A stretch of 64,000 nucleotides of DNA. Source: Phreatobacter sp. Its GTDB lineage: Bacteria; Pseudomonadota; Alphaproteobacteria; Rhizobiales; Phreatobacteraceae. The translations under genes and the position numbers were made by a program. Shown one piece after another: positions 1,713 through 58,288 of this stretch (positions are counted from its first letter, which is position 1; each line of letters starts with the position of its first letter). The stretch spans positions 1 through 64,000 of the forward strand of contig JAIEPJ010000132.1 in the NCBI GenBank assembly GCA_019749835.1, read 5' to 3'. Under the pieces are notes generated by a model. It was not told the origin of the DNA. It saw only the letters and a program-made list of their open reading frames with translations, and did not search any database.

Positions 1713-2627
1713 TCAGGCAGGTGCCGGGGGTGTTTCGCCTGCCGGCCCGCCGCCAAGCTGCGCGCCGGCCCTGGCGAAGGCCAGCACTGCGGGGGACGTC
1801 TCGCCCCGCCGGGTGCCGATGCAGACCTCCACCGGTTCCGGGCCGTCGCTGATGACGAGGAAGCGCACGCCCTTGACGCCGAGGCGGGCCGCGACCTCCG
1901 GCACCAGCGCGACGCCGAGGCCGGCCGAAACGAGGCCCACGACCGTGTGGATCTGCGTCGCCTCCTGGACGATGACCGGAGTCACCCCGGCGCGGTCGAG
2001 GGCACCGGTGATGCGGGCATGGAAAAGCGGGCTGCTCAGCCGCGGAAAGCCGATCATCGGCGTAGTGGCGAGGTCGCGCAGCGACACCGTGCTCCCCGTG
2101 CAGAAGGCCATGTCGGCCGGCACGGCCAGCAGGAAATGCTCGCGCCGGATCGTCTCGAAGCAGAGGCCCTCGACGCCGGCGACGGGCCGGAGAATGCCGA
2201 CATCGATATCGCCCGCGGCGAGCGCGGCCGCCTGCTCGGCCATGGTCATCTCGGCGAGGTCGAGCCCCACCTGCGGGTGATCGCTGCTGAACAGGCGCAG
2301 GAGCTCCGGCAGGGTGCCGTAGGTCGCGGAATGGATGAAGCCGATGCGCAAACGGCCCGACTTGCCCTCTGCGATCGCCCGCGTCTCGTCGCCGGCGCGC
2401 CGGAGATCTTCCAGAATGCGGCGTGCGCGCGCGAGAAGGGCGGTCCCGGCGCGGGTCAGCGCGACGCGGCGCTGGGTCCGCTCGAACAGGACGGCGCCGA
2501 GGTCCTTTTCGAGATCGCGGATGCGGCGGCTCAGATGCGGCTGGGCAATGCCGAGCCGCCCGGCGGCGCGGCCGAAATGCAGGTCCTCGGCGAGGACGAC
2601 GAAACTGCGCAACCCGACAATATCCAC
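1713..2627 (-). CDS. LysR-family transcriptional regulator
   Basis: A 304-residue LysR regulator. The N-terminal winged helix-turn-helix (about residues 1-60) contains the typical LHFGRAAGRLGIAQPHLSRRI helix pair. The C-terminal two-lobe effector domain covers about residues 90-295. It starts with GTG at 2627 without a clear ribosome-binding site. It is divergent from the RraA/Ldh/TctC/HIBADH operon and separated by 98 bp that contain a perfect ATTGAT-N11-ATCAAT dyad, so it most likely controls that operon and itself. The effector is unknown; a hydroxy- or oxo-dicarboxylate would fit the neighbours. Confidence 0.93.
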   Translation of the reverse strand: MDIVGLRSFVVLAEDLHFGRAAGRLGIAQPHLSRRIRDLEKDLGAVLFERTQRRVALTRAGTALLARARRILEDLRRAGDETRAIAEGKSGRLRIGFIHSATYGTLPELLRLFSSDHPQVGLDLAEMTMAEQAAALAAGDIDVGILRPVAGVEGLCFETIRREHFLLAVPADMAFCTGSTVSLRDLATTPMIGFPRLSSPLFHARITGALDRAGVTPVIVQEATQIHTVVGLVSAGLGVALVPEVAARLGVKGVRFLVISDGPEPVEVCIGTRRGETSPAVLAFARAGAQLGGGPAGETPPAPA

Positions 2628-2650
2628 ATTGATACGGATAGCGCATCAAT
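2628..2650. promoter_or_regulatory. LysR-type operator (ATTGAT-N11-ATCAAT)
   Basis: A perfect 6-bp inverted repeat with an 11-bp spacer: ATTGAT at 2628-2633 and ATCAAT at 2645-2650. It contains the classical T-N11-A core and abuts the LysR GTG start. A further ATCAAT half-site lies at 2659-2664, a common arrangement for the activation site of LysR regulators. The palindrome is seen directly; binding is inferred. Confidence 0.72.
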
Positions 2651-2725
2651 CCTTGTCTATCAATTTATTGGACGTCTTTTGACTGATCTCCATACTCCCG
2701 GCGAAAAGACGGTCCGGGAGGACGT

Positions 2726-3394
2726 ATGAGCATCGGATTTCGCGTTCAGGCCCGCGTAGCGGCCAGCAAAGACCTTGTCGACGGCCTTGCGGGTGTGCCG
2801 ACGTCCATCGCCTCGGACAACATGGCGCGGCTCTTCGCCGGTGGTTGCGGCCTCAGGCCTTATCATCGGGGCGGGGCGCTGCTCGGGACGGCCTTCACCG
2901 TCCGCACCCGCCCGGGTGACAATCTCATGGTCCACAAGGCGATCGACATGGCGGAGCCGGGCGATGTCGTCGTGGTGGATGCCGGCGGCGATCTGACCAA
3001 CGCGATCATCGGCGAAATCATGCTGTCGATTGCCGCCCGCCGCGGCCTCGCCGGCTTGGTCATCGATGGGGCGGTGCGCGACACCGACCATATCGGCGCC
3101 TCGCCGCTGCCGGTCTATGCGCGCGGCGTCACCCATCGCGGGCCCTACAAGGACGGGCCGGGCGAGTTGAACGGTCCGGTCAGCATCGGCGGCATGCCGG
3201 TCAGGCCGGGCGACATCATCATCGGTGATGCGGACGGCATCCTCGCGATTCCGCAGGCAGAAGCGGCCGAGGTGGCCCGGCTGAGCCGCGCCCAGATGGC
3301 GCGCGAACAGGCCATCCTCGCCTCCATCGCCGACGGCAGCATCGACAGGTCCTGGGTCGATGCGACCCTGAGGGCACGGGGCTGCGCGCTGTGA
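2726..3394 (+). CDS. RraA-family aldolase/decarboxylase
   Basis: A 222-residue RraA/HMG-aldolase family protein. Characterised members cleave 4-hydroxy-4-methyl-2-oxoglutarate and decarboxylate oxaloacetate with a divalent metal. The central block has GGDLTNAIIGE, then VIDGAVRDTDHI, whose Arg-Asp pair is the catalytic and metal-linked signature, then GDIIIGDADGILAIP. A strong GGGAGGA site sits just before the ATG. It overlaps the next gene by four bases (GTGA), so the two are translationally coupled. An enzyme role in the local catabolic operon is more likely than the RNase E inhibitor role of E. coli RraA. The exact substrate is unknown. Confidence 0.88.
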   Translation: MSIGFRVQARVAASKDLVDGLAGVPTSIASDNMARLFAGGCGLRPYHRGGALLGTAFTVRTRPGDNLMVHKAIDMAEPGDVVVVDAGGDLTNAIIGEIMLSIAARRGLAGLVIDGAVRDTDHIGASPLPVYARGVTHRGPYKDGPGELNGPVSIGGMPVRPGDIIIGDADGILAIPQAEAAEVARLSRAQMAREQAILASIADGSIDRSWVDATLRARGCAL

Positions 3395-41212: not shown

Positions 41213-43018
41213 TTGAATAGCCCACCCGCCTCCGCAGCAGACGGTCTCGACCGCAAGGTCTTCCGTGACTTCTTCGTCCTCGCCGCGGGCTGGTGGACGG
41301 GAGCGACGGCGCGCCGTGCCTGGTTCCTGACGGCAGCGCTGGCCGCCTGCCTGATCGTCAATGTGGGCATCAATTTCGCGGTCAACACCTGGAACCGACG
41401 GTTCTTCGACGCCCTCGAGAATACCGACACCCAGACGGTGTTCTGGGCTGTCATCGTCTTTTTCGGCCTCGTCGTCTGCGCCGCCGCCATCGGCGTCGGC
41501 ATCGTCCTGTCCCGCGAGACGCTGCAGGTCCGCTGGCGCGAGTGGCTGATAGGGTCGCTGATCGACCGCTGGATCGGCGGCCAGCGCTATTACCGCATGG
41601 GCCTGGCGCGAACCGAGCCGGCCAATCCGGAATACCGCATTGCCGACGACACGCGGCTGGCGACGGAACCGATCGTCGACTTTGCCATCGGCCTGCTCTC
41701 GTCCATCGTCTCGGCCCTGACCTTTGTCGGCGTCCTCTGGGTGGTGGGCGGGGCGCTGACGGTCCAGGTCGGCGGCGCGACGCTGTGGATTCCCGGATAC
41801 ATGGTGCTGGCGGCCCTCGTCTATGGCATCTCCATGTCGCTGCTGATGCTGTGGGTCGGCCATCGCCTGCCGGGGGCGGTTGCCCGGCGCAACGAGGCCG
41901 AGGCCAAGCTCCGCTTCGAGTTGACGCGGCTGCGTGAGAATTCCGAGAGCGTCGCGCTGATCCGCGGCGAGGCGGATGAACGCCGGGCCCTCGGCACCAC
42001 CTATCAGGAGCTCGTGCGGCGCTGGCTCGGCGTGGTGCGCCGGCACGGGCACATCACCTGGCTGACCAATGGCAGCGGCGTCTTCGTGCCTGTCCTGCCG
42101 CTGCTGCTGGCGGCGCCGAAATATCTGTCGGGCGAGTTCACCCTCGGTCAGGTGACGCAGCTCGCCGGCGCCTTCCTGCAGGTCCAGGTGGCCATCGCCT
42201 GGCTGGTCGACAATTTCCGCGCGCTCGCCCAGTGCTATGCGTCGATGCAGCGCGTCACCGAACTGACCAATGCCATCGACGACATCGACGGCGACTTCGA
42301 TCGCAACCAGCAAGGTGGCCGAAGCGGCGTCGCTCTGACCCCTTCCACGTCCGGTATGGTGCGGCTGGACACGCTGACCATCTCCGACCGTTCGGGACGC
42401 GTGCTCATCGATCAGGCCAATGCCCGGATCGAGGCCGGCGAGAAGGTCATGGTCTCGGGCGAGAGCGGCACCGGCAAGTCAACGCTGGTGCGCGCGCTCG
42501 CCGGCCTCTGGCCCTGGGGGACCGGCGTCATCGCCCTGCCGGCCGGCGGCACCATCGCCTTCGTTCCGGAGAGGGCCTATCTGCCCGCCGGGACGCTGCG
42601 CGGCGCACTCCTCTATCCGGCCCAGAGCCTGTCCGTGGACGATGCGGTCCTCAGCGAAGCGCTGACCGAGGCCGGGCTCGGCTATCTCAGCCGCCGCCTC
42701 GACGAGGTCGACCGCTGGGACCAGACCCTGTCCAACGGCGAGCGCCAGCGCCTCGCCATCGCCCGCCTGCTCGTCCAGCGTCCCGATCTCGTCATTCTCG
42801 ACGGCGCCACCAGCGCGCTCGACGAGGGCGGCGAGGCGCGGCTGATGGCGACCCTGGTGGCCGCTCTCGACCGTTCGACGCTGATCAGCGTCGGCTTGCG
42901 GCCGGGCCTCGAGGCCCTGCACGACCGCAAGCTGCAGCTGTCACGCGGCGACCACGGGGCCCACCTCGCCTCCGTCGCCCTCAGGCCGCCCATGGCGGTG
43001 GCCACTTCCTCACCCTAG
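41213..43018 (+). CDS. SbmA/BacA-like ABC transporter with degenerate ATPase site
   Basis: A 601-residue fused permease-ATPase of the ABC_membrane_2 (SbmA/BacA, YddA, Rv1819c) group. The membrane domain covers about residues 20-350 and the nucleotide-binding domain about 385-580. Walker A GESGTGKST is at 416-424 and the signature is LSNGERQ. The expected catalytic Glu after Walker B is Gly531 (LVILDGATSALD), and the H-loop His is Leu562 (SVGLR). Both changes are clear in the codons GGC and TTG. ATP may bind but turnover should be poor. The start is TTG 41213. Family cargos include peptides and cobalamin; the cargo here is unknown. Confidence 0.88.
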   Translation: MNSPPASAADGLDRKVFRDFFVLAAGWWTGATARRAWFLTAALAACLIVNVGINFAVNTWNRRFFDALENTDTQTVFWAVIVFFGLVVCAAAIGVGIVLSRETLQVRWREWLIGSLIDRWIGGQRYYRMGLARTEPANPEYRIADDTRLATEPIVDFAIGLLSSIVSALTFVGVLWVVGGALTVQVGGATLWIPGYMVLAALVYGISMSLLMLWVGHRLPGAVARRNEAEAKLRFELTRLRENSESVALIRGEADERRALGTTYQELVRRWLGVVRRHGHITWLTNGSGVFVPVLPLLLAAPKYLSGEFTLGQVTQLAGAFLQVQVAIAWLVDNFRALAQCYASMQRVTELTNAIDDIDGDFDRNQQGGRSGVALTPSTSGMVRLDTLTISDRSGRVLIDQANARIEAGEKVMVSGESGTGKSTLVRALAGLWPWGTGVIALPAGGTIAFVPERAYLPAGTLRGALLYPAQSLSVDDAVLSEALTEAGLGYLSRRLDEVDRWDQTLSNGERQRLAIARLLVQRPDLVILDGATSALDEGGEARLMATLVAALDRSTLISVGLRPGLEALHDRKLQLSRGDHGAHLASVALRPPMAVATSSP

Positions 43019-48317: not shown

Positions 48318-48386
48318 ATGATTCCAGAGTGAAATCGCCGCACGGTGTTCATTGCAGAAATGAAAACGGAGTGGAGCGAAATTATG

Positions 48387-48402
48387 TTGACATAATAAGT
48401 CA
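48387..48402 (+). promoter_or_regulatory. Candidate iron-responsive operator (TGA-N9-TCA)
   Basis: TGA (48388-48390), nine bases, TCA (48400-48402): the core of the RirA-type iron-responsive box. The dyad extends to GTTGAC-N7-GTCAAC and, with one mismatch, to 9-bp arms. It overlaps a -35-like TTGACA at 48387-48392; no good -10 is evident. It lies about 120 bp before the TonB receptor start inside an AT-rich segment of the 195-bp gap. Regulation by RirA or a related factor is inferred. Confidence 0.62.
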
Positions 48403-48521
48403 ACTTATCTAGTGACATTTCCGGCCCCTCCGCTCGCGGTGCGCGGCTTTCGTGCCAGCCAGCTGAACGCCTTCGTCTCACGCCAGCCAGCCATTCTTCA
48501 GGTCGGTTCGGAGTGTGGGTC

Positions 48522-50768
48522 ATGTCACGCAGCATGTTGGCGCCGTTCGGCGCATCGGTTTCGCTCGTCGCCATGCTGGTGGCGGTCGCGGGCGCGCTGG
48601 CGCAGGAGGCATCGGGCGGCGACGAGATCACCGTCACCGCGACGCGGGAGGAGCGCCAGAGGCTCGACGTTCCGGCGACTGTCGACGTCATCTCCCGCCG
48701 GCAGATGGAGGAGCGTCAGGTCCGCGATATCCAGGACGTGGTGCGCTACACGCCCGGCGTCTCGGTCGAGCGCGTCACCTCGGGTGCGGACCCCTGGAAG
48801 AATCTCGGCGGCTTCACGGTGCGCGGCATGAGCGGCAACCGCGTCGCCATCACCGTCGACGGCGCCCGCACCATCGAGCGCATCACCGACGGCACCCGTG
48901 ACCTCATCGACCTGCCCTACATGCGGGCGGTGGAGATCATGCGCGGTCCAGCCTCGGTGCTCTGGGGCGCCGACGCCCTCGGCGGCCTCGTCGCCTTCCG
49001 CACCCTCGACCCGCAGGACCTGATCCGCGGCCATCCGCGGGGATGGGGCGCGCGGCTGTCCACGAGCTTCGACAGTTTCGACCGGTCCATCGCCAAGACC
49101 GGCATGGCCGGGGTGCAGATCACGCCGGTGCTGCAGGCCCTGGTCTCGCTCAGCCATACGACGGCGCTGCAGCCGACCTTCTCCACCGCCCGCGCCGATG
49201 GCGGCCTCTGGGGTTGTCCGGCGATCCGCTCCATCCCCTGCAACATCACCGATCCCTTCCGCTCCCACCGCTGGAACGGCTTCGGCAAGCTGGTCTGGAC
49301 CCCGGTCGACGACCATGAGCTGCGCCTCGCCTACGAGCACTATGCCAAGACCACGACCACCCATCAGATGTGGGATTTCGGCCTGACCTCGGCGGGCTGG
49401 GTGAACGGCACCTATCCGCGCGTCCAGGACCTCCAGCGTCAACGGCTGACCTTCTCCCACGCCTGGACGCCGGGCTGGGGCTGGATCGATGCGGTCCGGT
49501 GGAACCTCACCTGGTCGCCGCAGCGCCGCGACCTCGACAGCACCCGCACCCAGACAGGGGCAACGGGAACGGCCAATGCAGGGCAGACGCGGACAGTGCG
49601 CGACATCCTGAACTATTCCGAGACCTTCTATCAGGGCGACGTTCAGTTCACCTCGCGCTTCAATCTCGGTCCCTCGGTCCACACGCTGACCTACGGTTTC
49701 CAGGGCGACATCGCCCGTACCGACTATTTCCGCCAGAGCACGACGACGAACCTGACCACCAACGTCTCCACCACGACCATCGCCGGCGGCTTCAACTTCG
49801 CCAATGCGACGACCCTGCGCGCCGATTTCTACCTGCAGGACGAGATCAAGCTCCTCGACGGGCGCTGGACCGTCACGCCGGGCGGGCGCCTTGCCAATTA
49901 CCGCATCACCCCGCGCATCGGCGCCGGCTATGTGGTGAGCCCGGCCGCCCCGCCCCGCGAGCTGAATTCCAGCCGCTTCATTCCGCAGGTCGGCACGATC
50001 TTCAAGCTGACGGACGTCTACGCGATCTATGCCCGCTATGCCGAGGGCTTCAAGATGCCGACGGCGCAGCAGCTCTACATGTCGCTGCCCGGCACGACGT
50101 TCAATCTCATCCCCAATCCGAACCTGAAGCCGGAGAGCTCGCGCTCCTATGAGGCCGGGTTCCGCGGCCGCTTCGAGCGGGGCTGGTTCTCGCTCGGCGT
50201 CTTCCACACCACCTACAAGGACTTCATCGCCAGCCTGCAGCCGGTGCCGGGGACTGTCGATCTCACCTCGCTCAACCTGTCCTCGGTGGTGCTCTGGGGC
50301 CTGGAGGGGTCGGCGGAATATCGCCTCAGCGACGATCTGATCCTGAATGCCGGCTTCTCCTATCAGTTCGGCAACCAGCGGGCGACGCCGACCTCGGCCA
50401 TCACCGCCTTCGACGCGGCGAGCCCGTTCAACGGTGTCGTCGGCCTGCGCTGGTTCAAGCGCGAGTGGAACCTCGACGGCGAGATCCTGGCGCGCTTTTC
50501 TGCGCCGGTGGCGCGGGCGAGCGCCGCGACGCTCTACAAGCCGGGCGGCTGGGTCACCCTCGACAGCTTCGTCAACTGGAAGCCGCGGGAGAACGTCACG
50601 CTGCGCGCCGGCGTGCAGAACATCCTCGACGCCCGCTACTTCCAGAACCTCGGCACCGGAACGACCTACTCGCTCGTGCCGACGGCCGCGGTCGCCCAGC
50701 AGAACCCGCTGGAGCTGCAGGTTGCCCCCGGTCGCACCTTCAAGACCAGCCTGACCGTCGACTTCTGA
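48522..50768 (+). CDS. TonB-dependent heme/hemoglobin-type receptor
   Basis: A 748-residue outer-membrane receptor. The signal peptide is cleaved near ALAQE. A TonB-box-like EITVTATREE opens the plug domain (about residues 50-160), which includes VVRYTPGVSVERV, GFTVRGMSGNRVAITVDGAR and MRGPASVLWGADALGG. The 22-stranded barrel ends in an aromatic residue (TVDF). Organisation resembles heme/hemoglobin receptors. The start at 48522 is preferred over GTG 48513. It heads an operon with a heme-utilisation-like protein and an ABC protein, behind an iron box. Confidence 0.92.
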   Translation: MSRSMLAPFGASVSLVAMLVAVAGALAQEASGGDEITVTATREERQRLDVPATVDVISRRQMEERQVRDIQDVVRYTPGVSVERVTSGADPWKNLGGFTVRGMSGNRVAITVDGARTIERITDGTRDLIDLPYMRAVEIMRGPASVLWGADALGGLVAFRTLDPQDLIRGHPRGWGARLSTSFDSFDRSIAKTGMAGVQITPVLQALVSLSHTTALQPTFSTARADGGLWGCPAIRSIPCNITDPFRSHRWNGFGKLVWTPVDDHELRLAYEHYAKTTTTHQMWDFGLTSAGWVNGTYPRVQDLQRQRLTFSHAWTPGWGWIDAVRWNLTWSPQRRDLDSTRTQTGATGTANAGQTRTVRDILNYSETFYQGDVQFTSRFNLGPSVHTLTYGFQGDIARTDYFRQSTTTNLTTNVSTTTIAGGFNFANATTLRADFYLQDEIKLLDGRWTVTPGGRLANYRITPRIGAGYVVSPAAPPRELNSSRFIPQVGTIFKLTDVYAIYARYAEGFKMPTAQQLYMSLPGTTFNLIPNPNLKPESSRSYEAGFRGRFERGWFSLGVFHTTYKDFIASLQPVPGTVDLTSLNLSSVVLWGLEGSAEYRLSDDLILNAGFSYQFGNQRATPTSAITAFDAASPFNGVVGLRWFKREWNLDGEILARFSAPVARASAATLYKPGGWVTLDSFVNWKPRENVTLRAGVQNILDARYFQNLGTGTTYSLVPTAAVAQQNPLELQVAPGRTFKTSLTVDF

Positions 50769-50873
50769 TCTCCTTAGCTCCACCGGTGCCCCGGCGGAGC
50801 AGCCGGGCGGCCGATCTCCCTCCCGGGATCGGCCGCCTGCCCCGACTTCCATGGACCCCAGAGGATTTCCGCC

Positions 50874-51593
50874 ATGACCGCCACCCCGCCGATTCGCCAG
50901 CGGCTCGCCTGTTCCGTCGTGGAGGCCGTGCAGGCGACCCGTGACATGGGCCGCGTCATGCTGTCCGCCGCCGCCAACGGGGCGACTCACGAGCGGATCG
51001 GGACGGTCGGCGAGGTGCTGCTGGAGGACGGCCATGTCCGGATCGCTGGCGGCGCCCATGATGCCCGCATCGACCTCGCCGTCGTTACCGGGTTGGTGGC
51101 GGACCGGTCCGGCCGCATGAAGGACCGCGTCATGCCGCGCATCGAGTTCCAGAACGCGGCGGGCGAGACCCTGTTCGCGATGATCGCGCTCGACGGCCCC
51201 GAACCCTTCGAGGTGGCGGTCGCGAGCCTCGCCACCGGGGCGGCACTGCCGGAGAAGGAGCGACCGGCGCCGTCCGGCGAGAAGGCCGCGGAGGTGTCCG
51301 GGACCGATCCGGCGGCGGAGCCGCTCGAGGCTGCGAGAGCCAGCGGCGAGGCGATCGGCGTCGTCTTGTCCTGCCCCGGCCTTGTCCAGCGCTGGCAAGG
51401 GACGGTCGCCGACATCAAGCCGGCCATGGGCTTCATCAACATCATCCAGCCGGACTTCCACCTGCACCTGAAGGTGGGCGCCGTCAGCCGCTGGGCGCGG
51501 GTCGAGACGGACGGGGTGGCCAGGCTGGAGGCCTTCGACGCGGGCAGCCGGCCGCTGGGCCTGACCCTCACCGGGCCGGCCGTGGCCCTGTGA
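50874..51593 (+). CDS. Divergent HmuS/HutX-like heme-utilisation protein
   Basis: A 239-residue soluble protein with two related halves, about residues 40-125 and 160-239, joined by an Ala/Glu-rich linker. The C-terminal half (FHLHLKVGAVSRWARV ... LEAFDAGSRPLGLTL) follows the pattern of the HmuS/HutX/ChuX heme-carrier fold. The first half (KDRVMPRIEFQNAAGETLF) shows the matching strand pattern. The protein is much shorter than HmuS (about 350 residues) and longer than HutX. It may hold or hand over heme in the cytoplasm. Assignment is from motif reading and operon context. Confidence 0.65.
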   Translation: MTATPPIRQRLACSVVEAVQATRDMGRVMLSAAANGATHERIGTVGEVLLEDGHVRIAGGAHDARIDLAVVTGLVADRSGRMKDRVMPRIEFQNAAGETLFAMIALDGPEPFEVAVASLATGAALPEKERPAPSGEKAAEVSGTDPAAEPLEAARASGEAIGVVLSCPGLVQRWQGTVADIKPAMGFINIIQPDFHLHLKVGAVSRWARVETDGVARLEAFDAGSRPLGLTLTGPAVAL

Positions 51594-51608
51594 TCGGGGG
51601 GACAGGCG

Positions 51609-53324
51609 GTGCTCACCAGCCTGAAGCAGATCTGGCGACTCGCCGTCCTCTGCGCCTGGCGGCCCGGTGGCCGGTTCGGCATCGTCCTGTTCGTGACCAT
51701 CTTCGCCTTCGGCCTCGCCGGTGTGCATGTCACCGTGCGGCTGATCCGCTGGACGAATGATTTCTTCACCGCGCTGCAGAAGCTCGACGTGCCGGCGGCG
51801 ACGCAGCAGATCGGCGTGTTCTTCGTTCTGGTGGCGATCAGCGCCGCCCTGAACCTGTCGGCCGGCTGGCTGCGCAAGCTCTTGCAGATCCGCTGGCGGC
51901 AGGGGCTGACCGATGCCGCCCTCGACGCCTGGCTGAGGGGCAAGGCCTACTGGCACCTGCGCGACCGGCAGGAGAACGGGCTCGACAATCCCGACCAGCG
52001 CATCGCCGACGATTGCCGGATCTTCGTCTACCGGCTGACGACCGAGGCGCTGGAACTCATGACCAACCTCGTCGCGCTGGTATCCTACGGCGCGATCCTG
52101 TGGTCGCTGTCGACCTTTCCGCTGGCTTTCAGCCTCTTCGGCATGGAGGTCTCCATCCCGCGCTACATGGTCTGGGCGGCGCCGCTCTATGTGGCGATCG
52201 CCAGCGGTCTGACGCATTGGCTCGGCAAGCCGCTGATTGCCCTCAACGTCGCGCAGCAGAAGACCGAGGCGGATTTCCGCTTCGCGCTCGCGCGCCTGCG
52301 CGAGAATGGCGAGCCCGTCGCCTTCGCGCGCGGGGAGCCGGCGGAGCGGCGGCTGTTCGACACCCGCTTCGCCGCCGTCGCCTGCAACTGGCGCCAGCTC
52401 ATGAACCGCGAGCTCATCCTCGGCCTCTTCACCCGGCCCTACATGCAGACGGTGCTGCGCATCCCGCTTTTCCTTGCCTTGCCGGCCTATCTCGCCGGGC
52501 GCCTGACCTTCGGCGGGCTGATGCAGATCGCCTCGGCCTTCCAGAATGTCGTGACGACCCTCTCCTGGTTCATCTTCTCGTACGGGGATCTGGCCGAACT
52601 CGTCGCGACGGCGCGGCGTCTCGACGGCTTCCTCGATGCCTGTGACGCCGCCGCCGTCCCGATCGGCGGCGTGGTCCAGACCCGGGACAAGGCCGGCCGG
52701 CTGAGGCTGCGCAATCTCAGCCTCAGCGCCCCCGACGGGCGTGAGATCGCCGCGATCCCCGACATCGTGCTGGCGCCAGGCGAGACCGTCTGGCTCAGCG
52801 GGCCCTCCGGCTGGGGCAAGACGACCCTGGTGCGCGCCGTGGCGGCGCTCTGGGTCCATGGCGCGGGCGAGGTCGCCGTGCCGCCGGGGTCGATCCTGTT
52901 CCTGTCGCAGCAGAGCTATCTGCCGCTCGGCAGCATCGCCGACGCCGTCGCCTATCCTGCCCATCGCGATGATCTCGGCGATGCCGCGATCCAGGCGGCC
53001 TTGCGGACGGTCGGCCTTGCGCGCCTTGCGGCGCCTGCCACCCTCGACGCGGCCGCGGGCACGGTGGGGCTCTCGGGAGGCGAGCGGCAGCGACTGATGC
53101 TGGCGCGGCTGCTGGCGCACCGGCCGGACTGGGCGGTGCTCGACGAACCGACCAGCGCCCTCGACCACGAGGCCGAGGCGGTCGTCCTCGCCGCCCTTCA
53201 TGCCGCGCTGCGGCAGACCGCCTTCCTCGTCATCGCTCATCGCGCCCCGCAAGGCCTGGGGCCGCTGCGCCGCATCGATCTCGCCGGTGGTGAGGCAACC
53301 GCGGCAGGCGTCAGCGCGGCGTGA
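51609..53324 (+). CDS. SbmA/BacA-like ABC transporter, intact ATPase
   Basis: A 571-residue fused permease-ATPase of the ABC_membrane_2 group, a paralogue of the gene at 41213. The membrane domain covers about residues 15-335. The ATPase domain has Walker A GPSGWGKTT, signature LSGGERQR, Walker B AVLDEPTSALD with the catalytic Glu present, and H-loop His in VIAHR. It starts with GTG 51609, 15 bp after the HmuS/HutX-like gene. Although it has exporter topology, relatives such as Rv1819c (cobalamin) and SbmA (peptides) import. Here uptake of the receptor's ligand is the simplest reading. Confidence 0.9.
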   Translation: MLTSLKQIWRLAVLCAWRPGGRFGIVLFVTIFAFGLAGVHVTVRLIRWTNDFFTALQKLDVPAATQQIGVFFVLVAISAALNLSAGWLRKLLQIRWRQGLTDAALDAWLRGKAYWHLRDRQENGLDNPDQRIADDCRIFVYRLTTEALELMTNLVALVSYGAILWSLSTFPLAFSLFGMEVSIPRYMVWAAPLYVAIASGLTHWLGKPLIALNVAQQKTEADFRFALARLRENGEPVAFARGEPAERRLFDTRFAAVACNWRQLMNRELILGLFTRPYMQTVLRIPLFLALPAYLAGRLTFGGLMQIASAFQNVVTTLSWFIFSYGDLAELVATARRLDGFLDACDAAAVPIGGVVQTRDKAGRLRLRNLSLSAPDGREIAAIPDIVLAPGETVWLSGPSGWGKTTLVRAVAALWVHGAGEVAVPPGSILFLSQQSYLPLGSIADAVAYPAHRDDLGDAAIQAALRTVGLARLAAPATLDAAAGTVGLSGGERQRLMLARLLAHRPDWAVLDEPTSALDHEAEAVVLAALHAALRQTAFLVIAHRAPQGLGPLRRIDLAGGEATAAGVSAA

Positions 53325-54237: not shown

Positions 54238-55233
54238 TCAGCGGCTTGCGACGACCGCCGCGAGGCGTCGCCAGCCGTCCTCGTCGCCGGGAAGCCCGAA
54301 ACGCAGGAGATGCGGCCGGCCGGCGAAGCGGCGCACATGCAGCCCCGCCGCGCCGAGGCGGGCGAACCAGGCAGGGGCTTCCGGCGTTTCCACGAGCCGG
54401 TAAAGGATCGTGCCGCCGACCACCGTGCCGATGCCGGCGAGCAGATCGTCGAGCCGCGCGGCATCGCCGGCCCGGTCTTGCCGCGCTGCCGCCAGCCAGG
54501 CGCTGTCATCGAGGGCCGCGGCGCCGATGGCGAGGGTGGGGCCGGCCACCGGCCAGCGCCCGAGGGCCTGCGTCAGGCGGGTGGCGAGGGCGGGATCGCC
54601 GATGGCGAAGCCGAGGCGCAGCCCGGCGAGGCCATAGGTCTTGCCGAAGGAGCGCAGCACCAGGGTGGCGGGCGGCAGCTGAGGAACGAGGCTGATCGTC
54701 GGCGTGAAATCGGCGAAGGCCTCGTCCACCACCAGCAGCCCGTCGCGGCGGGCGAGGCCGGCGGCGAGGGCGGCGAGGGCCTCCGGTGGGACGACGCGCC
54801 CGTCGGGATTGTTGGGATTGACCACGACGATGACGGTGGCATCGCCGGCTTCATCGGGCGTGGCGATCTCCCGCACGGCGTGGCCGGCCCGGCCCCAGGC
54901 GGCAGCATGCTCGCCATAGGTCGGCCCGAGGACCGCGCAGATCCCTTGGGGGACGAGGCGCGGCAGGAGATCGATGAGGATCTGCGTGCCCGGTGCAGCG
55001 ACGATGCCGGCACGGTGCGGGACACGATAGGCCTGCCGCGCCGCCGCCAGCAGCGCCTCCTCGTCGGCAGCGGCCGGCAGGCGCTGCCAGAGGCTGGCAG
55101 GCAGCGCGGGAAGCGGGTAGGGAACCGGATTGATCCCGGTCGAAAGGTCGATCCGCGGTTCGGGCGCCGCCGGGAACAGCCGGCGCGTCTCGCCGAGATC
55201 ACCGCCGTGCCACAGGGGTTCTGCCTCGCTCAT
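54238..55233 (-). CDS. cobC: Threonine-phosphate decarboxylase, cobalamin pathway
   Basis: A 331-residue PLP enzyme of aminotransferase class I fold. It forms (R)-1-amino-2-propanol phosphate, the linker attached to the corrin ring. The family opening WHGGDLGETRRLFP and LSTGINPVPYPLP are present, with VNPNNPDGRVV and the PLP lysine in SFGKTYGLAGLRLGF near residue 205. The start at 55233 is chosen by family alignment. Its start codon overlaps that of the divergent cobD in a shared CATG. It works with CobD. Confidence 0.94.
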   Translation of the reverse strand: MSEAEPLWHGGDLGETRRLFPAAPEPRIDLSTGINPVPYPLPALPASLWQRLPAAADEEALLAAARQAYRVPHRAGIVAAPGTQILIDLLPRLVPQGICAVLGPTYGEHAAAWGRAGHAVREIATPDEAGDATVIVVVNPNNPDGRVVPPEALAALAAGLARRDGLLVVDEAFADFTPTISLVPQLPPATLVLRSFGKTYGLAGLRLGFAIGDPALATRLTQALGRWPVAGPTLAIGAAALDDSAWLAAARQDRAGDAARLDDLLAGIGTVVGGTILYRLVETPEAPAWFARLGAAGLHVRRFAGRPHLLRFGLPGDEDGWRRLAAVVASR

Positions 55234-56212
55234 GTCGCCCGTCTCGCCTCTCGCCGTCCTTGCCCTCGCCCTCGTCATCGAGGCCGTCGCCGGCTATCCG
55301 CAGGGCCTGTTCCGCCGCATCGGGCATCCCGTCACCTGGATCGGCCGGCTTATAGGCGCTCTCGACCGCGGGATGAACAGGGAGGATCAGCCGCCCGACA
55401 AGCGGCGCCGGGCCGGGATCGTCGCTCTGCTTGTGCTTCTGGCGGTGACGGGCGGCGTCGCTCTGCTGGCCGAGATGCTCCTGGCGCCCTTGGCGATTCT
55501 TGGCGGCATCCTGCTCGCGGTCCTCGCCTCGACCCTCCTCGCCCAGCGCAGCCTGCACGACCATGTGGCGGCGGTGGCGGAGGCGCTGGAAACGGGCGGG
55601 CTCGAGGCCGGCCGGCGGGCCGTGTCGATGATCGTCGGGCGCGATCCCGACCGTCTGGACGAGGCCGGCGTGTCGCGCGCTGCCATCGAAAGCCTGGCGG
55701 AAAACTTCTCGGATGGGGTGACGGCCCCGGCCTTCTGGCTCGGCGTCTTCGGCCTGCCCGGAATTGTCCTCTACAAGGCGATCAACACGGCGGATTCGAT
55801 GATCGGCCACCGCAATCCGCGCCACGAGGCCTTCGGCTGGGCGGCGGCGCGGCTCGACGACCTCGTCAACCTGCCGGCCTCGCGGCTGAGCGCCGGGCTG
55901 ATCATCGCGGCGGCTGCGCTGGACGGGCCGGAGCCGGCGCGCCGGGCCTGGCGGTCGGTCAGGCGGGACGCGAAACGCCACCGCTCGCCCAATGCCGGCT
56001 GGCCCGAAGCGGCCATGGCGGGCGCGCTCGGCCTCAGGCTCGCGGGTCCGCGCGTCTATGGCACCACACTGGTGACGGACGCCTTCATGGGCGACGGGCG
56101 GATCGAGGCCCATGCCGGCGATATCCGCGCGGCGCTGAGGCTCTATCGCCGCGCCCTCGCGCTTGGCTGGGCGCTGGTCGCGGCGCTGGTCGCCCTCGCC
56201 TTCAGCTTCTGA
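55232..56212 (+). CDS. cobD: Adenosylcobinamide-phosphate synthase
   Basis: A 326-residue inner-membrane enzyme (CobD/CbiB) that joins aminopropanol phosphate to adenosylcobyric acid. Several hydrophobic segments are interspersed with the motifs [11 protein letters not shown] near residue 30, [17 protein letters not shown] near 155 and [18 protein letters not shown] near 180. The ATG at 55232 overlaps the complementary start codon of cobC. The 3' end overlaps the convergent cobQ by 11 bp. Confidence 0.95.
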
Positions 56213-57668
56213 CGCGGGCCGCGATCTGCCAGAGACGATCGACGTCGAGATGGCGCTCCAGATGGGCGGCAAGTCCGTCCAGGACCGTCTCGACCATGGT
56301 CTCCCAGGCGAGGTCGGAGGTGGCGGCGCCGAGCCTCCCGAGGAAGGCGCGCCGCATGGCGTCCTCCCCGAACAGGCCATGGACATAGGTGCCGCCGATC
56401 CGCCCGTCGGGCGAGACGGCGCCGTCACCGCGCCCGTCGGACAGGGTGGCGAAGGGACGGACGGTGGCTGGCCCGTGCGTTACGCCGAGATGCATCTCGT
56501 AGCCGGCGAAGGACGCGCCTTCCGCCGTCGCGGTGACCGGCGTCAGGCGCTTGTCGGCCGTCAGGACGGTCTCGACGTCGAGGAGGCCTAGGCCGGGGAC
56601 GGCGCGCGGCTCGCCCTCGATTCCTTCAGGGTCCGCGATGGTGCGCCCGAGCATCTGATAGCCGCCGCAGATGCCGAGCACGCGCCCGCCGCGCCGGACA
56701 TGGGCGGCGATGTCGATGTCCCAGCCCTGGGCCCTCAGGAAGGCGAGATCGTCGATGGTCGCCTTGGAGCCGGGCAGGAGGATCAGCGCCGCCCCGGCGG
56801 GCAGGGGCGTGCCGGCTTCGACCAGCCGCACGGCGATGCCGGGCTCGGCCTTCAGCGGGTCGAGGTCATCGAAATTGGCGATGCGCGGCATGACCGGAAC
56901 GGCGATGACCGGGCATTCGCCCTCGCCGGAGCCAAGGCCCGCCTTGAGGCCCATGATGTCCTCGGCGGGCAGGCGCGCCGCCTCGGGGAAATGCGGAACG
57001 AGACCGATGGGCGCCCAGCCGGTGCGCGCGGCGATGAAGGTCATGCCGTCGGCGAAGAGGGTCGGATCGCCACGGAATCGGTTGACGATGAAGCCGGCGA
57101 CCATGGCGGCATCGGCCGGGTCGATCACGGCCTGCGTGCCGACGAGGCTGGCGATGACACCGCCGCGCTCGATGTCGCCGAGGAGAACGACCGGCGTCCC
57201 CGTGGCGCGGGCGAAGCCCATATTGGCGATGTCGCCCGCGCGCAGGTTGACCTCCGAGGCCGAGCCGGCGCCCTCGACGAGCACGAGATCGGCCTCGCCC
57301 GACAGGCGCGTGAAGGAGTCGATGACGGCTTCCATCAGCCGCGGCTTCCAGTCCTGGAAGGCGCGGGCCCCGGCATTGCCGATGCGCCGGCCCTGGACGA
57401 CGACCTGGGCGCCGGTCTCGCTCTGGGGTTTCAGCAGGACCGGGTTCATGTGGACGGACGGGGCGACGTAGGCGGCGCGCGCCTGCAGCGCCTGGGCCCT
57501 GCCGATCTCGCCGCCATCGGCGGTGACGGCGGCATTGTTCGACATATTCTGCGGCTTGAACGGCCGGACCCTCAGACCGCGCCGGGCGAAGAGGCGGGCA
57601 AGGCCTGCCACGATCAGCGACTTGCCGACGTCCGACCCGGTGCCCTGGATCATCAGGGCGCGGGTCAA
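56202..57668 (-). CDS. cobQ: Cobyric acid synthase
   Basis: A 488-residue glutamine-dependent amidase that converts adenosylcobyrinic acid a,c-diamide to adenosylcobyric acid. The N-terminal ATPase domain starts with [18 protein letters not shown] (P-loop) and NMSNNAAVT. The C-terminal class I amidotransferase has the catalytic Cys in [10 protein letters not shown] near residue 325. The ATG overlaps the cobO stop by four bases, so cobU, cobO and cobQ form a tight operon. Confidence 0.96.
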
Positions 57669-58288
57669 AATTCGATGCCCTTCTGCGCCTTCACGCCCGC
57701 GGCGAAATGGTGCTTCACCTGTCCCATCTCGGTGACGAGGTCGGCGGCAGCGATCAGGTCCGGCTTGGCGTTGCGGCCGGTGACGACGACGTGCAGGCCC
57801 TCGCGCCGGCCGGCCAGCGCCGCGACGACGTCGTCAAGCGGCAGATAATCGTAGCGCAGCGCGATGTTGAGTTCGTCCAGCACGACGAGTCCGATCGTCG
57901 GATCGGCCATCAGTTCACGCGCCTTGTCGAAGGCGCGACCGGCGGCGGCGATGTCGCGCGCCTTGTCCTGCGTCTCCCAGGTGAAGCCCTCGCCCATCGT
58001 GTGCCAGGCGACGCGGTCACCGAACGTTTCCAGCGCGCGGCGCTCGCCGGTGTCCCAGGCGCCCTTGATGAACTGCACCACGCCGACGCGCCAGCCGTGG
58101 CCGAGGGCGCGCAGGGCGAGGCCGAAGGCGGCGGTCGATTTGCCCTTGCCCGGGCCGGTATGGACGATGAGCAGCCCCTTCTCGAGGGTCTTGGAGGCCA
58201 CTTCGGCGTCCTGCACAGCCTTGCGTTTCTCCATTTTGGCCCTGTGGCGGGCGGCCTCATCGGCATCGGCGGGCATGGTCATCCTCAC
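57665..58288 (-). CDS. cobO: Cob(I)yrinic acid a,c-diamide adenosyltransferase
   Basis: A 207-residue CobA/CobO-type adenosyltransferase that adds the 5'-deoxyadenosyl ligand to the corrinoid cobalt. The ATP-binding loop is [13 protein letters not shown] near residue 45; later blocks are [11 protein letters not shown] and [15 protein letters not shown]. Three in-frame starts are possible: GTG 58288 (overlapping the cobU stop), ATG 58282 and ATG 58276. The last is preceded by a GAGG site six bases away. The gene overlaps both neighbours by four bases. Confidence 0.96.

Follow-up and report, generated by a model that had tools for sequence, protein, structure and literature searches.

Genes and boundaries of the unit

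Within the window, i.e., the whole stretch of 64,000 nucleotides of Phreatobacter sp. DNA that was analysed, three genes of the forward strand stand in a row behind two leader elements. An IRO-type iron box, GTTGAC-N7-GTCAAC (48386..48404, +; core TGA-N9-TCA at 48388-48402), is followed by a two-part motif (48454..48491, +) whose two GCCAGCCAGC copies match the HmuP-responsive element (HPRE), and then by the genes encoding a TonB-dependent receptor of the heme/hemoglobin class (48522..50768, +), a short two-lobe protein of the HemS/ChuS fold with 239 aa and a domain of the HemS/ChuX kind (50874..51593, +), and a type IV ABC protein similar to Rv1819c and the ABCD proteins, in which the transmembrane and ATPase domains are fused (51609..53324, +). 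For the receptor we took the ATG at 48522 as the start—the ORF itself opens with the GTG at 48513—and an ATG start is also visible in the related loci L001-L004. A gap of 105 bp separates the receptor gene from the HmuS-like gene and one of 15 bp the latter from the ABC gene; because of this spacing we infer that the three genes form one transcription unit, in which a simple scan gave no promoter-like or terminator-like sites. The initial annotation of this DNA had listed the same parts (box, receptor, short HmuS-like protein, and fused ABC protein), and all of them were recovered in the places it had assigned to them, including the perfect TGA-N9-TCA box ahead of the receptor.

That annotation had further claimed the absence of a periplasmic binding protein, an HmuU permease, and an HmuV ATPase, and the searches agreed: neither among the ORFs of the unit nor in its Pfam and NCBIfam searches was a binding protein, a FecCD permease, or a separate ATPase found. 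The unit is thus not of the HmuTUV type, in which binding protein, FecCD permease, and HmuV lie together; such genes sit elsewhere in the genome. With the HmuRSTUV, PhuRSTUV, and ChuRSTUV systems the cassette shares the heme-class TonB receptor and a HemS-family protein, whereas it differs from them in that a fused type IV ABC protein is present in the unit without those three components. Downstream, at 54238-58288, lie cobalamin-synthesis genes, encoding a CobD-type decarboxylase and CbiB according to NCBIfam, and then CobQ-like and CobO-like frames recognised by eye.

The receptor passed both NCBIfam heme-receptor cut-offs, in each instance narrowly (TIGR01786, 327.9 bits against 323.75; TIGR01785, 317.9 against 316.85), in agreement with the heme/hemoglobin type previously attributed to it. 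PhuR was its best match among solved structures (3.4e-60 over 36-747), the weaker ones being CirA (1.8e-22), ShuA (6.6e-21), and BtuB (3.9e-16); the siderophore-receptor model TIGR01783 scored 179.8, under its cut-off of 223.5, and the TonB-B12 models 116, far under theirs of 599.7. As the axial heme ligands of PhuR we take His124 and Tyr519. The plug histidine aligned in PhuR is missing from the 20 cassette receptors aligned, and the tyrosine of PTAQQLY, which aligns with a PhuR tyrosine, is kept in 21 of 22. Two receptor cysteines, 232 and 240 (49215-49241), are invariant in the 22 cassette receptors aligned and perhaps form a disulfide-closed loop; at L067:2799-5022 the receptor matches as two overlapping pieces, perhaps through a fault of assembly or sequencing.

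The short protein had been described as two-repeat and HmuS/HutX-like, and indeed Pfam HemS matched it in two stretches (1.9e-11), while its structure model (pLDDT 89.8) displays the whole two-lobe HemS architecture. ChuS, HemS, and PhuS align to that model over 215-220 residues, with Z values of 19.0-19.4 and an rmsd of 2.7-3.5 (Foldseek E, 1e-15 to 8e-14), so that the modelled protein is assigned to the two-lobe HemS fold. With 239 residues it is shorter than HmuS, PhuS, and ChuS, which have about 345-360. According to a passage of PMC6018153, the axial histidine of HemS, ChuS, and PhuS (His196, His193, and His209, respectively) is located on the helix between the lobes; unlike those proteins, the cassette protein contains no histidine in the short linker between its lobes (residues 107-144, placed by lobe correspondence), and hence lacks that axial ligand. 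Because of this linker without histidine, the protein, HemS-like by fold, would bind its ligand differently, or would bind something other than ferric heme.

In the ABC protein, Pfam recognised PF06472 (2.4e-45), PF05992 (9.4e-22), and PF00005 (7.7e-15), and the Walker A, signature, Walker B, and H-loop positions are kept, with some variation, in all 23 cassette ABC proteins aligned, as fits the fused exporter-fold protein with an intact ATPase site that had been proposed. The proposed likeness to Rv1819c was equally evident, this being the best solved match (2.6e-95, positions 7-547) over nearly the full length, with proteins of the ABCD family next, among them ABCD4, the lysosomal cobalamin carrier. 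The label of SbmA/BacA type, for its part, stood only to the extent that the SbmA_BacA transmembrane domain is present (78.3 bits), whereas the protein is closer to the Rv1819c/ABCD group (PF06472). With 71.1 bits in the NCBIfam SbmA model against a cut-off of 492, and with an ATPase domain, it is, judged on its sequence, not SbmA/BacA proper, the peptide transporters of that name consisting of the transmembrane domain only (as stated in part of PMC3603451), to which the cassette protein adds an ATPase. The fused domains, the near full-length similarity, and the ATPase motifs make it a predicted Rv1819c-like type IV ABC importer; its structure model was poor (pLDDT 55.4), and no conclusion was drawn from it. 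Fused domains are likewise present in Rv1819c (the mycobacterial BacA), YddA, ExsE, and ABCD4. CydDC, a two-subunit type IV ABC protein of cytochrome bd maturation that is said to handle heme, gave partial NCBIfam matches to the cassette protein, far under cut-off.

For Rv1819c, the section of PMC3603451 concerned identifies no binding protein and considers import without one; the same section ties Rv1819c to cobalamin and peptides and not, unlike the cassette protein, to a heme receptor or a HemS protein. The exporter-fold proteins IrtAB and YbtPQ, which import iron compounds (an excerpt of PMC8386196), resemble the cassette protein in fold and in the proposed import, but the best matches of the latter are in the ABCD/Rv1819c branch instead. 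In the classification given in that excerpt, heme import belongs to type II (HmuUV, BhuUV), and the type IV importers are those of siderophores and cobalamin.

Linkage of the three genes in relatives

All five of the loci found first keep the three genes, and four of them recur in a larger sample of 397 genomes of the order, 61 of which matched the HemS-like profile, 30 strongly and over nearly the full length (E 2.6e-38 or better), with most of the other matches being the ends of longer HmuS-like frames. We fetched the loci of 29 of the 30 strong matches—the window being the thirtieth—along with one partial match. In 19 of the 30 strong loci the HemS-like gene has both the receptor gene and the ABC gene beside it; these loci belong to the families f1 (10, the window included), f34 (2), f50 (3), and f41 (4); L005 added, 20 genome loci keep all three genes. 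The order is receptor-HemS-ABC in f1, f34, and f50, and receptor-ABC-HemS in f41. The other 11 strong matches all belong to f16 and lack the two partners, and the partial match is also without receptor and ABC gene, a ChaN-like gene adjoining it. In the f16 loci (L081-L085 and L087-L092) the short protein is accompanied by neither a receptor nor an ABC gene nor ChaN, and the genes that follow it are alike in the three loci read (L082-L084).

Among plasmids, 150 records contained an ABC match at 1e-60, and the five with a HemS-like match were the five top-ranked, their ABC matches having 45-49% identity and the next listed 43%. Four of the five were read—those of Devosia neptuniae, Paracoccus aminophilus (pAMI4), Pannonibacter phragmitetus, and Rhizobium sp. 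CC-CFT758—and each region contains receptor, ABC, HemS-like, and ChaN genes in that order, the record of Rhizobium sp. CC-CFT758 having two small "hypothetical" genes at the HemS-like position. A control with a weaker ABC match (Bradyrhizobium, 38%) had neither partner within 4 kb. The co-occurrence of the three genes in relatives, which the initial annotation had put forward for checking, is thus documented in the 20 genome loci and in the four plasmids read. In pAMI4 (L185, 1-9187) the four-gene cassette adjoins the plasmid repABC.

A ChaN-family (PF04187) gene is part of the unit in both f34 loci, all four f41 loci, L005, and the four plasmid regions; common as it is among the cassettes, it does not, however, belong to the unit in the window's genus, being absent from nine f1 loci and the window as well as from the three f50 loci. 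The ChaN members seen begin, by eye, without an obvious signal peptide, and the family has a link to PhuW. Of the 18 fetched loci having the three genes, only 3 retain the cobalamin genes as neighbours.

The linked ABC proteins also form a clade of their own: in a tree with 18 paralogues, for which eight genomes were searched and six had paralogues, all 20 cassette ABC proteins fell on one side of a 100/100 branch and the paralogues on the other. These results bear on the possibility that the ABC gene is a mere neighbour, coding for a transporter of peptides or drugs that has nothing to do with the receptor and the HemS-like gene. Each genome has several paralogues of the family, and SbmA/BacA relatives carry peptides, as that explanation would have it; but the linkage extends across several families and plasmids in two gene orders, and the clade is separate, so that we consider such an explanation very improbable. 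Chance neighbourhood was refuted by the linkage, the clade, and the ranking of the plasmids. The window contains a second fused ABC protein of the ABC_membrane_2/SbmA_BacA type (41213-43018, +; 601 aa), which falls outside the cassette group of the tree, and four matches of that type were counted in the genome.

Iron box and HmuP-responsive element

The IRO consensus is TGA-(N9)-TCA (in the part of PMC6386902 that treats it). Taken by itself we rejected this pattern as evidence, the window having 26 matches against 7.5 expected; the extended palindrome GTTGAC-N7-GTCAAC, in contrast, occurs without mismatch once in the window, namely in the cassette leader. The box is conserved in L001-L005, 14 of 19 related loci have a match to the form TTGAC-N8-TCA in the 450 bases ahead of the receptor match, and the canonical hmuR leader of the same genome has the same box, all of which upholds the iron box of the earlier reading; what stands at the putative promoter is a box of the RirA-regulon pattern, which RirA would be expected to read. 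Beside hmuV (L023:8508-8972, contig C326 of the same genome) there is an Rrf2-like regulator frame with no obvious three-cysteine RirA pattern by eye, possibly an iron regulator.

The second leader motif fits the HPRE of Chromobacterium violaceum chuR as quoted in a passage of PMC9131926, and was present in the leaders of the window and of all five of the first relatives. Because a looser form of the pattern has chance matches in most genomes (it matched in 23 of 24, often in unrelated places, the reversed control giving 0-3 per strand), HPREs were counted if they fitted the strict form or adjoined hemP or the receptor. Of the strict form the window's own genome has two copies, one in the cassette leader and one in the canonical hmuR leader, with none in the reversed control. 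In the genus g1 the looser pattern matched about 230-260 bp from hemP in all 12 genomes sampled, and among the 10 genomes with the cassette the paired motif is in the leader of nine, the tenth being without the first base of one copy. No hemP was found in five of the 24 genomes (two of f34, three of f50), nor was a paired motif or an iron box in the cassette leaders of any of these five; in f41 hemP is present, yet only half-motifs occur at the cassette, and the Paracoccus copy has neither box nor HPRE in the form searched. With an HPRE in the receptor leader and hemP in the same genome (C69:3568-3675), the window's unit is a predicted member of the HmuP regulon. Iron control, as predicted for the cassette, is a feature of the HmuRSTUV, PhuRSTUV, and ChuRSTUV systems, and the chuR leader has an HPRE as well (same passage of PMC9131926).

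An HPRE does not prove heme, because in C. violaceum it also precedes the siderophore receptor gene vbuA (PMC9131926, in the same part). The cassette could accordingly serve the uptake of an iron chelate other than heme, such as a ferric siderophore, the HemS-like protein handling the chelate or acting in iron release; besides the vbuA element, the heme ligand positions are partly lost, the heme-receptor models were passed narrowly, and iron-siderophores are the cargo of IrtAB and YbtPQ, two importers of the exporter fold (PMC8386196, in the excerpt cited). We nevertheless consider this unlikely, since the siderophore-receptor model remained under its cut-off, the receptor is closest to PhuR, and its partners belong to the HemS and ChaN families.

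Cobalamin, or another corrinoid, would be a further candidate, imported in the manner of Rv1819c with the receptor and the HemS-like protein adapted to that tetrapyrrole. Such a cargo would suit the best solved matches of the ABC protein—the cobalamin importer Rv1819c and then the ABCD proteins with ABCD4—as well as the CobD-type and CbiB genes downstream and the histidine ligands missing in receptor plug and HemS linker. Against it, an Rfam search of the leader found nothing, and hence no cobalamin riboswitch, while in ten related loci Rfam gave two tRNA genes only; the leader carries an iron box and an HPRE instead, the TonB-B12 models fell far short, the cobalamin genes accompany few of the fetched cassettes, and ChaN and HemS are heme families. 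We therefore regard a corrinoid as distinctly unlikely. Heme is favoured over it by the HPRE of the leader, by partners from the HemS and ChaN families, by the class of the receptor, and by the absence of a cobalamin riboswitch; the heme direction of the initial annotation likewise gains support from the leader HPRE and from ChaN, a heme-binding family, in the units of relatives. In sum, we read the unit as a cassette of the predicted heme regulon that is built on a type IV ABC protein.

Relation to HmuTUV and proposed function

The initial annotation had placed the ABC protein in the stead of HmuTUV, and had named a complete HmuTUV elsewhere in the genome that fully accounts for heme uptake as one of the findings that would speak against this. 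For the genome at hand that proposal does not hold: hmuR, hmuP, and hmuT lie on contig C69 and hmuV (294.5 bits against an NCBIfam cut-off of 261) at the end of contig C326, with hmuU divided between the two, its larger part being on C69, so that HmuP, HmuR, HmuT, HmuU, and HmuV are all present, and in Phreatobacter the cassette stands beside the canonical HmuTUV, not instead of it.

HmuV was over cut-off in 19 of the 24 genomes, the remaining five being those of f50 (three) and f34 (two). For f50 the absence of HmuTUV was rejected, since all three genomes have a divergent row of HmuR-, HmuT-, HmuU-, and HmuV-like genes, and the binding protein of the one genome tested carries the HmuT signature, a pattern of our own making that picked out all 4 HmuT-type proteins and none of 28 others. 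Both f34 genomes, whose listed completeness is 100%, carry the unit, and in neither was HmuP, an HmuV over cut-off, or an HmuT-like protein found: their 11 and 3 Peripla_BP_2 proteins are all weak HmuT matches without the HmuT signature, and the best HmuV-like matches, at 255.9 and 250.7 bits, are near misses of the 261 cut-off in surroundings without an HmuT or HmuU match. Because HmuT and HmuV over cut-off were found in neither genome, the idea of a replacement survives for f34 alone, where the cassette may replace HmuTUV, as suggested by family searches confined to binding proteins and HmuV, in two genomes.

The f34 genomes also bear on the direction of transport. The ABC protein might be an exporter that clears the cytoplasm or the membrane of heme, a porphyrin, or a breakdown product, import being left to the receptor and HmuTUV and the cassette serving for protection during heme use. 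Classically, the type IV fold is that of exporters, the Phreatobacter genome already encodes HmuTUV as an import system, and BacA of Mycobacterium marinum moves cobalamin in both directions (a portion of PMC10960864). Yet Rv1819c and ABCD4, the closest relatives of solved structure, move their cargo into the cytoplasm (PMC3603451 and PMC8386196, each in part), and with neither an HmuT-like protein nor an HmuV over cut-off found in f34, import there would lack a known route if the ABC protein exported; we thus judge export to be improbable.

To import by the ABC protein we would give about an even chance: the unit would be a second, iron- and HmuP-controlled uptake cassette of the heme type, in which heme or a related tetrapyrrole would enter through the ABC protein with no binding protein involved. 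At low iron, repression at the IRO box would be lifted, and HmuP, acting on the leader HPRE, would raise the synthesis of the receptor, which in turn would supply the periplasm with heme or with a metalloporphyrin resembling it. A homodimer of the Rv1819c-like type IV ABC protein would then move the cargo across the inner membrane without a binding protein, and in the cytoplasm the HemS-like protein would take it over, a ChaN-family protein being added in many relatives. Because histidines are missing from both the receptor plug and the HemS linker, the cargo could also be a porphyrin distinct from ferric heme, or another chelate, and the direction of transport would be the weakest step, because of the two-way movement by the M. 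marinum BacA.

A wider claim—that an undescribed, partly plasmid-borne cassette imports heme without binding protein or HmuUV, and is the only inner-membrane heme route in f34 at least—we put forward as tentative, possible rather than probable. Among the matches listed in a literature search no paper combined these gene names, a result that, with most subscription journals outside the search, is not proof of absence. If heme import by an exporter-fold cassette were true, it would widen what the type IV fold is known to import, could explain alphaproteobacteria that have a heme-class receptor yet no recognisable HmuTUV, and would give a likely substrate to proteins now named merely "SbmA/BacA-like"; direct test cases of the idea exist in the plasmid copies and in the lineage f34.

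Elsewhere in the Phreatobacter genome, contig C18 (L024, about 2001-3375, -) has in a row a TonB C-terminus, a monooxygenase-like gene, whose product is presumably HmuQ-like, and a HutX-like gene, which row is probably part of the conventional heme system.
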